A stretch of 64,000 nucleotides of DNA from assembly GCA_029978905.1 (NCBI GenBank), contig JAPOIM010000008.1, positions 1 through 64,000 of the forward strand. Reading direction: 5' to 3'. This document shows positions 12,580 through 18,161 of this stretch, one piece after another. The translations under genes were made by a program, and so were the position numbers. The number at the start of each line of letters is the position of its first letter. Positions within the stretch are counted from its first letter, which is position 1. Below the pieces are notes generated by a model. That model was given only the letters and a program-made list of their open reading frames with translations, did no database searches and had not been told where the DNA came from. The stretch comes from Planctomycetota bacterium. GTDB lineage: Bacteria; Planctomycetota; Planctomycetia; Pirellulales; UBA1268.

Positions 12580-13637
12580 TGCCAACCCTCCTCCCGACAC
12601 TCTCGATCGGCTCTCTCACGCTCGACACTCCGATCGTGCAGGCGGCCCTCTCGGGCTACAGCGACCGTGCGATGCGGGTGCTCGCGAGACGCCACGGGGC
12701 GGCCTACACGCTCGGAGAAGTGCTCCTCGACAAGTTCGTCGTGGAAGCGGGGGCGAGCCTCCGCAATCGCAACCGCATCTCGGTGGATCCAGAGGAGCAT
12801 CCCGTCGGTGGCCAGTTGATGGGGGCGGATCCCGCGCAGTTTCCTCCCGCAGCCCTGAAACTCGTCGAGGCTGGCTTCGATGTGATCGACATCAACTTCG
12901 GCTGCCCCGTGAAGAAAGTGCTCGGTAAATGCCGTGGGGGCTTTCTCCTTGGTGTGCCGGAGACAGCGCTCGAAATCGTGCGACGCGTCCGCGACGCAGT
13001 GCCTGCAGCGATTCCCGTCACGCTCAAGATGCGGCGGGGCATCGATGCGTCGCCCGAGAGCACCGATAAGTTCTGGAAAATCTTCGACGGAGCCTTCGCC
13101 GCGGGCGTCGCCGCGATCACGGTCCACGGCCGCAGTGTGCAACAGCGCTACGTCGGCCCGAGTTCGTGGGACTTTCTGCGTGAAGTGAAGCAGGCCGCCG
13201 GCACCAAAACGGTGCTCGGCTCCGGTGACCTCTTCTCCGCATCAGCCTGTGTGGCAATGCTGCATGAGACGGGCGTCGATGGCGTGAGCATCGCTCGCGG
13301 GGCAATTGGCAACCCGTGGATTTTCGAGGGCGTTCGCCGACTGCTTGCCGGCCTGCCACTTCCCGCACCACCGAGCCTCTTCGAACAGGCCGACATGCTC
13401 CGCGAGCACTACGCCTTGGCAGAGGAACTGCACGGCGAAGTGCTCGCCTGCCGCGTGATGCGCAAGTTCGCGATCAAATACGCGCGGCTGCATCCCGAGC
13501 ACCTCTCCGTTCGCGACGCGTTTGTGCAGGTCAAGCAGCGAAGCGATTGGATGACGACGCTGGCCACGCACTACGCCGAAGACCTGCCAGGCCGCGTCCC
13601 GGACGACGACATCGACGAAACCGCCAACTGCTTCTAG
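12579..13637 (+). CDS. tRNA-dihydrouridine synthase (Dus family)
   Basis: DINFGCPVKKV; KMRRGID; TVHGRSVQQRYVG; RGAIGNPWIF; start trimmed to ATG 12579 (TGATG overlap with zwf). Confidence 0.92.
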   Translation: MPTLLPTLSIGSLTLDTPIVQAALSGYSDRAMRVLARRHGAAYTLGEVLLDKFVVEAGASLRNRNRISVDPEEHPVGGQLMGADPAQFPPAALKLVEAGFDVIDINFGCPVKKVLGKCRGGFLLGVPETALEIVRRVRDAVPAAIPVTLKMRRGIDASPESTDKFWKIFDGAFAAGVAAITVHGRSVQQRYVGPSSWDFLREVKQAAGTKTVLGSGDLFSASACVAMLHETGVDGVSIARGAIGNPWIFEGVRRLLAGLPLPAPPSLFEQADMLREHYALAEELHGEVLACRVMRKFAIKYARLHPEHLSVRDAFVQVKQRSDWMTTLATHYAEDLPGRVPDDDIDETANCF

Positions 13638-13651
13638 GGCCGCAGTTCGAC

Positions 13652-13707
13652 AGCAGACGCCCGCCGCAACGCGGTCTGCCACGCCACCCACGCGCGGGCT
13701 GTTCGCC
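13652..13707 (-). other. Weak short attC-like / terminator-like inverted repeat downstream of the GNAT-fusion gene
   Basis: Minus strand GGCGAACAGCCCGCGCG...GCGTTGCGGCGGGCGTCTGCT: GCCCGC/GCGGGC arms between an RYYYAAC-like GGCGAAC and GTCTGCT; lies between convergent genes. Confidence 0.3.
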
Positions 13708-13735
13708 GTCCAACCGCATGCCTTCGTGCAAGCGA

Positions 13736-14623
13736 TTAGTAGTTGAACACATCCCGCATGGCGTATGTCTTGCCTGCGGCTTTGTTCAGGGCGTCAAGAA
13801 CCTTGTTCTTCGTATTGGGGGTGAGCCATCGGCCCTTGCAGGCGCGAGCCACCATCTTGTGCGTGATCTGCTGCGTCGAGGCCGCGACAAGGTCATGTCG
13901 GGTGAGATTGCCCGCCGCCATGAGGCGCGCGATCGGCTGTTCACCGAGATTGCGCTCCGTAGTGGCATGCTGTTCTTCGTTCATTTCCGGATGTGCACGA
14001 CCGCCATCACTGGATGGCGACGAACCCCTTTCGATTTCAAAAACCTGCGTCGACCGCTGCTCTGGTGCAACGCATTGCTCGACGACGGTGTTGTGCTGGG
14101 CCCCGAAAGCCGGCAGGTAGAACGCGAGGCCACCGCGAAGGTCCTGCAGCGACTGCATGCTGTCAGCACGAATAAAGAATACCTCTTGCGGCATCCCGGC
14201 GAAGCCATGCGTGATGCCGTAGTCAGCCGATGGAACGAATCCAAAACGCGTGTAAAAGCCGGGATGGCCAGCGACGACGCTAAACGGAGTGTTTCTCGAC
14301 ACCAACCGACGAAGGCCGGCCTCGACAAGTTGGGAGCCGATTCCTTTTCGCTGGAACGCGGGCAACACAGACAGCGGCCCAAGCCCTATGCCATGTATCG
14401 TTCGATGCGCGCATTCAATCGAGACCGGCGAGAACAGAATGTGCCCAACGACTTGGGTGCCGTGAATGGCCACAAGCGACAGCGTTTGATCTGTGGCTGC
14501 CCGCACGGCATCAATCAGGTCTGCCTCGCCATTGTGCCCAAACTCGGAGTTCGCAAAAGCCTCAATCGTGACCTTCCGAATCCCGCCACGATCGCTTGGT
14601 GTCTCGTCACGGAGAGTAATCAT
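13736..14623 (-). CDS. GNAT-family N-acetyltransferase fused in frame to a small C-terminal DNA-binding-like domain
   Basis: GNAT core (GLGPLSVLPAFQRKGIGSQLVEAGL, VVAGHPGFYTRFGFVPS, LAFYLPAFGA) ends near residue 172; the C-terminal 82 aa start with an internal Met at 13984 (MNEEQHATTERNLGEQPIARLM...TYAMRDVFNY). Confidence 0.75.
   Translation of the reverse strand: MITLRDETPSDRGGIRKVTIEAFANSEFGHNGEADLIDAVRAATDQTLSLVAIHGTQVVGHILFSPVSIECAHRTIHGIGLGPLSVLPAFQRKGIGSQLVEAGLRRLVSRNTPFSVVAGHPGFYTRFGFVPSADYGITHGFAGMPQEVFFIRADSMQSLQDLRGGLAFYLPAFGAQHNTVVEQCVAPEQRSTQVFEIERGSSPSSDGGRAHPEMNEEQHATTERNLGEQPIARLMAAGNLTRHDLVAASTQQITHKMVARACKGRWLTPNTKNKVLDALNKAAGKTYAMRDVFNY
13993..14083 (-). other. Putative decayed attC site embedded in the GNAT-fusion ORF
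   Basis: Minus strand GTCGAGCAATGCGTTGCACCAGAGCAGCGGTCGACG...CGTCGCCATCCAGTGATGGCGGTCGTGCAC: attC-like left arm, partly complementary right arm, length about 91 bp like the neighbours. Confidence 0.4.
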
Positions 14624-14886
14624 GGCACCCTGTCGGCTTCTTGATCGTCATCATTGCTTTCTACAGCAAACACCTCACGATACCCGGGATTCCTCCGGGG
14701 AGCTTCGCCGAGATCCACGTTTCGGCCGTCCTCCCGAGCGGCGATCTCGCGTCACACGTCGTCGGGTGTGCTGAAATTCATGGCAAGAACCCTTTCGGTG
14801 CCATGCTCGCCCGGCCCTGCACTCAGCAAGCCCATGGAGCCGTTTCGGCCCAGTGCTTGGCTGCTCGAAATCCGGCAACGCAGCAC

Positions 14887-14908
14887 GAGTGGCACCACGA
14901 AGCCACTC
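14887..14908. repeat. Hairpin downstream of the lipoprotein gene (7-bp stem GAGTGGC/GCCACTC, 8-nt loop)
   Basis: Direct reading: gagtggc-accacgaa-gccactc. Confidence 0.55.
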
Positions 14909-14935
14909 TCGAACAAGTCCCACGCCCGCACCCAA

Positions 14936-15400
14936 TCACTCCGGCATCGACGTATTGCGATAGGCAACGATCGACCGCTCGCGATCAAGGCCAACCACAG
15001 TTCCCGATGTGCGGTACCACTCGGTGATTCCTTCTCGTTCAATCGACCCGGGCATGCCTTTCAACCATTCTGGTGAGGGTCCGTCCGTCTTCTCTGCACC
15101 CACGGGAACCCAATCATTCATCTCCGCTTTCGGAACCGAAGCGATCAATCGGATATCCCAGTCAGACGGAGCGGGAACCAAGCCACCACCGTTATTCTGG
15201 TACGCGATGTCGTAATCGAGTTTCTCGTACGTGCGCCTGAACGTGACATAGTTCTCGATGAATCGAACGCGGTCGCCGATGTTCGCGCGTGCAGAACTCG
15301 TTTCTGCGACCGACGCCGGTCCGGGTTGGGACTTGGAGCAACCCGCCAACGCAAGGCCCATGAACAGTGGAACGAGAACTTTTGCTGCAGTACCACTCAT
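14936..15400 (-). CDS. Hypothetical lipoprotein (cassette-like gene)
   Basis: Start trimmed to ATG 15400; lipobox-like LFMGLALAGCSKS; no recognised family. Confidence 0.6.
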   Translation of the reverse strand: MSGTAAKVLVPLFMGLALAGCSKSQPGPASVAETSSARANIGDRVRFIENYVTFRRTYEKLDYDIAYQNNGGGLVPAPSDWDIRLIASVPKAEMNDWVPVGAEKTDGPSPEWLKGMPGSIEREGITEWYRTSGTVVGLDRERSIVAYRNTSMPE

Positions 15401-15421
15401 GGCAACCAGTCTCTTCGAGCG

Positions 15422-15508
15422 ACAGAACGCTACACATCCCCGGCCGGCCACCAGCGACATGAACTTCAAAGAACGCACCCGACGGCCGCTCCGGTACATG
15501 TGTTGAGA
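15422..15508 (-). other. Putative attC recombination site
   Basis: Minus strand TCTCAACACATGTACCGGAGCGGCCGTCGGG...GCTGGTGGCCGGCCGGGGATGTGTAGCGTTCTGT: outer boxes TCTCAAC and GTTCTGT, arms ACACAT/ATGTGT and CCGG/CCGG, 87 bp. Confidence 0.6.
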
Positions 15509-15524
15509 GCCCGCGAACCGGGCG

Positions 15525-15935
15525 TTACGGACCATATACGAACAAATGTTTCGCCCAGTTCAGTGTGTTGAGTGCGGTTGGTATCAGAACGAAAAGCCAT
15601 GGAACGGCAAGGACCAGAACGACCCAGACAACTGCCGCAGCGTAATTGTCGTGAGAGGACCTTCGACGCGGCGACAGACATCCCACTGCCAGAACGGCGG
15701 TCCACGTCGCAATGATCAAAACCATCAAGTGCGTTTCGTCTGAATGTTTGCCTCCGTTCAACGGCAGCAGATACGACGCGGAAGCATTTTTCATCATTCT
15801 GCCAGCAAGCGATGCGAGAACGAGGTACGCATCCGCGAGCAATGTGGCGTACGCGACAACAATGAAAGGTGAAGATCTCGCCACCTGTCGCGGTTCGTTG
15901 TCGCTGCTCCTTTGTGAATCATCATCTGGTGTCAT
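15525..15935 (-). CDS. Hypothetical multi-pass membrane protein (cassette-like gene)
   Basis: About 3 hydrophobic segments (FIVVAYATLLADAYLVLASLAG; MVLIIATWTAVLAVGCL; AAAVVWVVLVLAVPWLFVLIP); start trimmed to ATG 15935. Confidence 0.6.
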   Translation of the reverse strand: MTPDDDSQRSSDNEPRQVARSSPFIVVAYATLLADAYLVLASLAGRMMKNASASYLLPLNGGKHSDETHLMVLIIATWTAVLAVGCLSPRRRSSHDNYAAAVVWVVLVLAVPWLFVLIPTALNTLNWAKHLFVYGP

Positions 15936-16021
15936 GGGGACCGCCGAGTGAACGTGCAATCCAGTGAGGCCGTTGAGTCTGAGACTATTAATTGAGGTTA
16001 TACAAACCGTTTCACAGTTGC

Positions 16022-16110
16022 AGGCAACCGATTGCAATCAGCGGCTCGCGACCTTGGACTTTCCATCGGGACCGATTTTATCGCGAGTCCGCTGCATTGC
16101 TTGGTTCTAC
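16022..16110 (-). other. attC recombination site (best example in the array)
   Basis: Minus strand GTAGAAC-CAA-GCAAT(G)CAGCGG(A)CTCGCGA-...-TCGCGAGCCGCTGATTGC-AATCG-GTTGCCT: 5+6+7 bp of pairing interrupted only by two single unpaired bases on one arm; starts 3 bp after the upstream stop codon. Confidence 0.75.
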
Positions 16111-16113
16111 GGT

Positions 16114-16314
16114 CTACCTATCCCGCGGACGCTTGAAAATCAGCACCGCATCTTTTGTGTTTCCGTACACCTGATTGGTGTCAAAGGCGGCAACGAGCTC
16201 CCAGCCGTCTCGGCCTACATCGTTCATCATTTGGTCAAGTTTTGTCACATCCAATTTGCCGCCCAAGAACCAGCCCTCAGCGGCAAGCTTGATCGTTCGG
16301 TATTCCCAAGTCAT
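16114..16314 (-). CDS. DUF4177-like small protein (cassette-like gene)
   Basis: MTWEYRTIKLAAEGWFLGG...LDQMMNDVGRDGWELVAAFDTNQVYGNTKDAVLIFKRPR: short protein with the 'GWELV' and 'lifKRp' pattern of DUF4177. Confidence 0.75.
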   Translation of the reverse strand: MTWEYRTIKLAAEGWFLGGKLDVTKLDQMMNDVGRDGWELVAAFDTNQVYGNTKDAVLIFKRPRDR

Positions 16315-16500
16315 CGCTGCACTCCTAGCAGAACACTGTTTAGGCAGGTCCGCGTAAGGGCCGGTCGTTCAGCATTCTGGCAGCATAAGACACCGCCGAC
16401 GTTTCCTGCGATAGCGGCGTAAGCCTTTTCATGCCAACACCTTGCGTCGACAAGCGACCTGGCGAGTGGGTTCTTCTGCGGACCGGCATAAGCACCTCGC

Positions 16501-16895
16501 TCAGAGCCCGTCCATCGGGCTGCGGACACCTGCTGGGCCACGGTTGAGCACGTGCGTGTAAATCATGGTCGTCTTCACGTCGCGGTGACCGAGCAACTCC
16601 TGCAAGGTGCGAATGTCGTAGGCGGCTTCGATGAGATGCGTGGCGAACGAATGCCGATAGGTGTGACAGAGGCCCGTTTGGTTCGCCCCGCCCCCAAGAC
16701 CGCCCGACGAACCGCCCGTTGCACGAGCGAGGCCATCAGCCACGTGTCGCCTGAGAGGCCGGTCAGCACAGTCTTGACCTCGTCGCGCGTCATCACCGCC
16801 GGCAGGCGAGTTGGCGTGCGGGCACGGCTCACATCTCCAAGCTCACCCAGATCCCGTGCGAGCACTTGGTGGCACAGAAAGAGAATCGTTGACGC
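16501..16895 (-). pseudogene. intI: Integron integrase (IntI-type tyrosine recombinase) pseudogene: 5'-truncated, internally deleted, frameshifted
   Basis: Fragment 1: [56 protein letters not shown] then [19 protein letters not shown]; fragment 2 in another frame: [54 protein letters not shown]. Confidence 0.85.
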
Positions 16896-18161
16896 TTAAC
16901 CTCCCATCGCTGCCCGAAGTTCCGCGAGCACGGTCGCGTCGGCTTCACTCTCAACACGTTCGGCGAGCCGCTCGCGAGCCCAGGGGGCTCGCACGTTTTT
17001 CTTGATCCAGCAACCAAGCGCCCACGCGGCGGCACCACGGACGACTGGCTCAGGATCGACAAGGGCGGCCGCAAGGGCATCGGCCGCCGCAGGGTCGGGT
17101 GCGTTGCCCAGCGCGATCGCAGCCGAACGCGCGAGCCCATGCCTCTTCGCCCGCAGGATCGGCGAACCGCGAAAGCGACTGCGAAACGTCGCCTGATCAA
17201 GCGTGAGCAACTCGGCAAGCGGCAGCGTTGCGTGGTCGTCGCGAGGCAGAAACGCGGGCTCTTTAACGACAGGAGCATGCCTGTTCCACGGGCACACGTC
17301 TTGGCAGATGTCGCAGCCGAAAACCCAGGTGCCCATCCCCTCGCGAAGGTCCGCCCGCACCGCCCCGCGATCTTCGATCGTGAGCGTGGCGATGCACTTC
17401 GACGCATCGAGCACCCGCGGCTCGGGAAACGCATTCGTCGGGCAGGCCTCGAGACACGCAGTGCACGTGCCGCAGTGGTCGACCTCCAACGGAATATCCG
17501 CAGGAAGCTCGATCGTGGTCAGCAGGGCTGAGAGAAAGAAGAAACTGCCCGCCTGCGGACTGATCAGCATCGTGTTCTTTCCGATCCAACCCAAGCCAGC
17601 CAGCCAACCGAAGTCGCGTTCAGCAAGCGGGGCCGAATCGACCACCCCGCGATTCTGCGAATCGGGCACTCGCTCCGCGAGCCAGGCCGCGAGGGTGTTG
17701 AGCCGGCTGCGGAGCAGGTCGTGGTAGTCATCGCCGACCGCGTAGCAAGCCACCCTTCCCTGCCCGGGGTCAGCACCGTCGCCCCGCTCCGTCGGTGAGC
17801 CTGGCACACGCTTCGCCGGCGAGCAGGCATTCGTGGCATAGTCGGTGGCCAGCATCACGATGGTCCGCGCGTGGGCCAGAACGTGTTGCGGATCCGCCCG
17901 CAGCGATTCATGCCGCGAGAGCCAGTCCACCATAGGCCCCGCAAAGCCCTGCCGCAGCCACGCCCCGAAGGCCTCGTGGTGCGGAGGACGCGTCACGGCC
18001 GTGATCCCAACCCGAGCAAATCCTAGCTCGCGAGCGCGCTCCCTGAGGTCTTGGGCGATCTCGGCAGGCGAGGAAATCTCCCGGAGATGGGCAGGTGGCG
18101 CACTCGGCGGAGGAGTCGAAGCCGCCCTTTGAGGAAACTGATCTGGACGCTCGCGTGTCAC
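16896..18161 (-). CDS. queG: Epoxyqueuosine reductase
   Basis: ARELGFARVGIT, GWIGKNTMLISPQAGSFFFLS, CGTCTACLEACPTNAF and CDICQDVCPWN 4Fe-4S motifs, C-terminal HEAT-like repeat. Confidence 0.95.
   Translation of the reverse strand: MTRERPDQFPQRAASTPPPSAPPAHLREISSPAEIAQDLRERARELGFARVGITAVTRPPHHEAFGAWLRQGFAGPMVDWLSRHESLRADPQHVLAHARTIVMLATDYATNACSPAKRVPGSPTERGDGADPGQGRVACYAVGDDYHDLLRSRLNTLAAWLAERVPDSQNRGVVDSAPLAERDFGWLAGLGWIGKNTMLISPQAGSFFFLSALLTTIELPADIPLEVDHCGTCTACLEACPTNAFPEPRVLDASKCIATLTIEDRGAVRADLREGMGTWVFGCDICQDVCPWNRHAPVVKEPAFLPRDDHATLPLAELLTLDQATFRSRFRGSPILRAKRHGLARSAAIALGNAPDPAAADALAAALVDPEPVVRGAAAWALGCWIKKNVRAPWARERLAERVESEADATVLAELRAAMGG

Follow-up and report, generated by a model that had tools for sequence, protein, structure and literature searches.

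What is the origin of the gene cluster that separates dus from queG in the genome of this uncultured planctomycete? The window analysed here, a 64-kb stretch of DNA, lies on contig C223 of assembly G000 (4.26 Mb, 234 contigs, 94% complete). Two housekeeping genes delimit the cluster: dus, coding for a tRNA dihydrouridine synthase (12,591–13,637, plus strand; Pfam Dus, E = 7e-56), and an intact queG, coding for an epoxyqueuosine reductase (16,896–18,161, minus strand; TIGR00276, 341 bits). Both belong to a zwf-dus-queG order that is conserved across the family. The interval between the dus end at 13,637 and the queG end at 16,896 measures 3,258 bp, and all its open reading frames (ORFs) are on the minus strand: a remnant of an IntI-type integrase, a DUF4177 gene, genes for a membrane protein and a lipoprotein-like protein, and a fusion that includes a GNAT domain. 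The initial annotation had described such a minus-strand block between two housekeeping genes and had interpreted it as a cassette array. In integrons, IntI inserts cassettes at attI by recombining folded single-stranded attC sites. An attC model, an IntI-type profile match, an attI-like sequence and a comparison of the locus among relatives support the interpretation as an array, and we consider that the locus is very probably a degraded sedentary chromosomal integron lying between queG and dus.

The GC content of the 3,258-bp block is 58.3%, against a window mean of 63.7%, and is about the lowest for that size in the window. The lowest-GC kilobase of the window is located at 15,347–16,346 (53.9%), in agreement with the lower GC noticed earlier around 15.5–16.2 kb. 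The first cassette carries the DUF4177 gene (16,114–16,314, minus strand; Pfam DUF4177, E = 2.6e-13), a relative of which, in the genome G236 of another family, sits between two attC sites in an attC array. There are two further cassette candidates: the small membrane protein gene (15,525–15,953, minus strand; no Pfam match over the cut-off) and the lipoprotein-like gene of 154 aa (14,936–15,400, minus strand; no Pfam or PHROG match), each with one weak relative (25% for the latter) in the 247 genomes of the order. These three genes are present as initially annotated, on the minus strand, the first with the support of Pfam. The common GNAT domain aside, the cassette genes are absent from nearly all of the 247 genomes; at the locus they have one orientation, and in relatives they are missing from it.

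The inter-gene regions were evaluated with a covariance model. A scripted scan of integron loci of the family for the attC motif (AAC, then paired arms carrying two fixed bulges, then GTT) revealed many sites of about 88 bp, and the model, R1, comprises 34 attC sites from other genomes of the same family, the window being excluded. In the R1 structure 96% of cells are paired and 14 of 19 pairs are changed on both sides; covariation is 0.51 compared with 0.12 in shuffles, and the model collapses once the partners are slid. R1 matches the 64-kb window three times at E<10, each time on the minus strand. These matches correspond to the attC-like repeats previously named at 13,993–14,083, 15,422–15,508 and 16,022–16,110, so that an independent model scores all three and their coordinates were right. 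Site 1 (16,023–16,110, minus strand) reaches 77.5 bits (E = 7.8e-19) and site 2 (15,422–15,508, minus strand) 22.0 bits (E = 0.0011 in 64 kb). Site 3 (13,993–14,083, minus strand), between the GNAT domain and a small protein, scores 15.2 bits (E = 0.079 in 64 kb, 0.004 in the interval), with about 7 of its 19 pairs broken. Genome-wide, site 2 is the second-best R1 match, and sites 1 and 2 are the only ones among the matches listed at E≤1 (150 of 3,898 candidates scored at first). In control loci picked regardless of integrons (434 kb), the best R1 score is 14.3 bits, below all three sites, and on this ground chance hairpins were rejected as an explanation. The attC sites in the integron-bearing loci of relatives mostly score 45–95 bits, and sites 2 and 3 are far lower.

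Site 1 keeps full arm pairing, the two bulged bases that the model leaves unpaired on one arm, the R and L boxes and the hairpin, and is 90% identical to attC sites of the array of G018, a genome of the same genus. Its DNA fold departs from that of shuffled sequences (z = −4.2); sites 2 and 3 (z = −1.4 and −2.0) are not outstanding by folding alone. On the basis of the R1 scores, set against those of the controls and of the relatives' sites, site 1 is an intact attC, site 2 is a decayed attC and site 3 is a probable attC relic. The three attC sites originally proposed therefore amount to one unmistakable attC and two decayed ones, the last of them only probable. By these scores, the at least two attC sites that IntegronFinder 2 uses as its default for a CALIN (a cluster of attC sites without integrase) are provided by sites 1 and 2, site 3 being marginal. 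A search of the window with Rfam at gathering thresholds returned a single tRNA and nothing else, and a repeat search among the inter-gene regions detected weak similarity only, as divergence among the sites is too great. No attC was found between the lipoprotein-like and GNAT genes. The 312 bp there (14,624–14,935, minus strand) hold no recognizable gene, the overlapping ORF being without Pfam match, and no attC match was listed in them with filters off; this stretch is probably either the decayed end of a cassette or the place of a lost attC.

Low GC content and genes with few relatives would fit any foreign DNA, for example an ordinary horizontally acquired block brought in by an unrelated mechanism, with hairpins between its genes by chance. 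The likelihood of such an origin is negligible, as the attC and IntI results refute it: a 77.5-bit attC plus two more sites lie at gene boundaries on one strand, unequalled in the controls, and homology extends to IntI and attI.

The integrase remnant had been recognized as IntI-type from the outset, and this proved correct. Its ORF extends over 16,504–16,892 (minus strand). The pseudogene consists of a fragment with residues 69–125 (16,722–16,892, minus strand), identified by a TIGR02249 match and by alignment to locus L068, and of a 3′ part with residues about 229–315 (16,504–16,763, minus strand; TIGR02249, E = 4e-29). Within the 3′ part, the TIGR02249 match covers residues 254–315 (16,504–16,689, minus strand) and is collinear with the first fragment. 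The C-terminal fragment scores 102 bits with TIGR02249, compared with 62–63 bits for XerC/XerD, and shows 93% amino acid identity to the G018 IntI over residues 261–315. Alignment to the full-length IntI of G018 (L068) allowed three lesions to be mapped. Residues 1–68 are lost, and the fragment starts right after the queG stop, which abuts it; about 100 codons (about 340 bp) are deleted at the short repeat GCYTCGCTC, with removal of the IntI-specific region; and there is a frameshift near residue 261. The locus thus lacks a full-length integrase with the IntI-specific extra region and retains only the two intI pieces. No other IntI, intact or not, was found in the G000 assembly, where the remaining TIGR02249 matches are weaker and correspond to other tyrosine recombinases. 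The earlier statement that the array lost its integrase holds in that no functional IntI is left, but a pseudogene of the integrase persists, with an attI-like sequence after it.

This attI-like sequence (16,320–16,360, minus strand), which adjoins intI and was assigned by homology, has a putative insertion point at G/TTCTGC and lies inside a stretch that shares 87% identity with the G018 intI-attI junction; the identity runs past the attI-like junction up to the start of the first cassette. The sequence CCTAAACA.TGTTC is common to the locus and to the G018 junction, and the junction as a whole is 83–87% identical to the two G018 copies. As read from the sequence, GTTCTGC on the attI side mirrors the attC R″ box GTAGAAC at 6 of 7 positions, and the boundaries of the DUF4177 cassette agree with this.

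One intact attC without a functional IntI beside it could also be part of a CALIN that arose when an IntI located elsewhere inserted cassettes off-target; the neighbouring recombinase fragment would then be there by coincidence. Clusters of this kind are common, and among the origins proposed for them is such off-target insertion (PMC8618304). In the present case this is very improbable: the recombinase fragments are of IntI type, they are arranged and oriented as in the G018 integron, the attI-like sequence comes after them, and no other IntI was found in G000. The array might alternatively still be alive, with site 1 mobilized in trans by an integrase from a nearby cell or from a portion of the genome that is missing from the assembly. 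The arm pairing and both bulged bases kept at site 1 speak for this, as do the incomplete, fragmented assembly (94% in 234 contigs) and the intact IntI held by congeners. Sites 2 and 3 are decayed, however, and neither another attC nor an intact IntI was found in G000, so that we regard a live array as distinctly unlikely and retain the degraded integron as the explanation of the locus.

The last gene of the cluster is an ORF of 295 aa (13,736–14,623, minus strand) with a GNAT acetyltransferase domain (14,090–14,623, minus strand; Pfam Acetyltransf_9, E = 1e-10) and, as its C-terminal part, a small protein of 82 aa (13,736–13,984, minus strand; no significant Pfam match). It was originally annotated as a GNAT/DNA-binding fusion. 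Two parts do occupy one ORF, probably joined through the attC relic, but DNA binding has no significant domain match behind it. The GNAT domain is common in the order, and its relatives stop near residue 175, at about the start of site 3. The ORF reads through site 3, so that a GNAT gene has probably merged, through the attC relic, with the small gene lying downstream of it. The 82-aa part is 62% identical to a free-standing 89-aa gene that in G242 lies beside a GCV_H gene and not in any array; the small gene may therefore not be a cassette. An expressed chimera, in which two neighbouring cassettes were fused via a decaying attC that now serves as a peptide linker, is unlikely. In the single sequence at hand, an open frame across 90 bp is no evidence of selection. 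If it were true, integron decay would have created a new domain architecture.

The initial annotation had proposed comparing the dus-queG interval in related genomes, and had named conservation of the same genes at this locus across the order, with no recombination-site structure, as an outcome against its interpretation. The comparison gave the opposite result. The two genes are convergent, and in 15 of the 19 relatives compared they are separated by a clean, empty junction of −67 to 229 bp with no array, the genes of the cluster being absent from the relatives' gap. In G017, of the same genus, dus and queG overlap by 4 bp; there the integron either was never present or was cleanly lost. Longer GC-rich gaps without attC match occur in G037 (2.6 kb), G030 (0.9 kb) and G050 (0.4 kb). 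The G037 gap (L092:7140–9781) contains ORFs, and this convergent junction therefore takes other insertions too.

The locus-specific integron is shared by one congener only, G018, and is absent in G017. The dus-queG gap of G018 is 1.5 kb long and has 54% GC; it contains a single gene, as well as a degenerate attC (17.9 bits with R1) that starts 4 bp from the queG stop. The gap gene, located after this attC (L067:9183–10445), codes for a 420-aa protein without Pfam match and is probably a stranded cassette. Elsewhere, G018 contains a full-length and a truncated copy of intI; in both cases a piece of the queG 3′ end lies before the gene and a long attC array after it. The full-length copy encodes the nearest full-length IntI to that of the window, and the queG fragment is immediately upstream of it. 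The G000 locus is collinear with this full-length integron, with 83–87% identical DNA, from the queG tail through intI to attI. The queG fragments beside intI, together with the remains at both gaps, show that a queG-attached integron existed in the genus, and G000 and G018 retain different ruins of it at the home locus.

Both G018 copies lie at ends of contig 6 (L068:1–1660 and L069:17133–19044), where intI adjoins an IS91-type transposase gene (Zn_Tnp_IS91) or its shared 308-bp end. The IS91-like element (L069:17860–19050) has many, mostly fragmentary copies in the family, contig 222 of G000 included, and is nearly absent from the other families of the order. The queG fragments at intI are 82–83% identical in nucleotides to the queG of the window, compared with 72–78% to G018's own queG, hinting that a unit of queG tail and integron may have moved within or between genomes. 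In most family integrons examined (L068, L069, L071–L074, L076–L078, L080 and L086), intI has the same direction as the cassettes. It is divergent from them in L081, L082 and L083, whose IntI is 49–50% identical to that of G018.

From the lesions, sites, synteny and relatives observed here, we infer the past activity of the integron, the order of its decay and the entry of all the genes as cassettes. In its active stage, IntI would have recombined attI, just downstream of intI, with the folded single-stranded attC of circular cassettes, building up an array transcribed in the direction of intI. The integrase was destroyed by the N-terminal deletion reaching the queG stop, by the loss of about 100 internal codons at a short direct repeat and by the frameshift. 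After this loss the array would have been frozen, its cassettes immobile by this platform and the attC structure free to decay. The outcome is graded: one attC structurally intact, one damaged, one barely recognizable and one, between the lipoprotein-like and GNAT genes, missing. The GNAT gene would have merged with the small gene downstream through an attC relic. This graded state of the sites fits decay after intI breakage.

An inactivated chromosomal integron is a known phenomenon, new here at the dus-queG locus; an early survey found about one-third of intI genes to be pseudogenes (PMC2426708). The locus leaves the general understanding of integrons unchanged and is a real but ordinary genomic relic. 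By comparison with empty sites and with intact integrons of relatives, it documents the death of a chromosomal integron in a planctomycete family that has been little studied, and it shows that queG served as an integron anchor in this family. The integrons downstream of ilvD in Xanthomonas are alike in having intI anchored at one housekeeping gene, inactivated, with a short frozen array; most have been inactivated by frameshifts, stops or large deletions (PMC12444791). The present locus differs from them in its planctomycete host, in the queG/dus anchor, in the common direction of intI and cassettes and in the smaller number of surviving attC sites. Integrons have been recorded in Planctomycetota, and the literature also offers a covariance model for Planctomycetes attC sites (PMC8618304, PMC8352920); the model applied here, R1, draws on 34 sites from the bacterial family to which the window belongs. 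Compared with pseudo-integrons and CALINs in general, the locus keeps recognizable intI fragments and an attI-like sequence, and the origin of the cluster is therefore directly readable.
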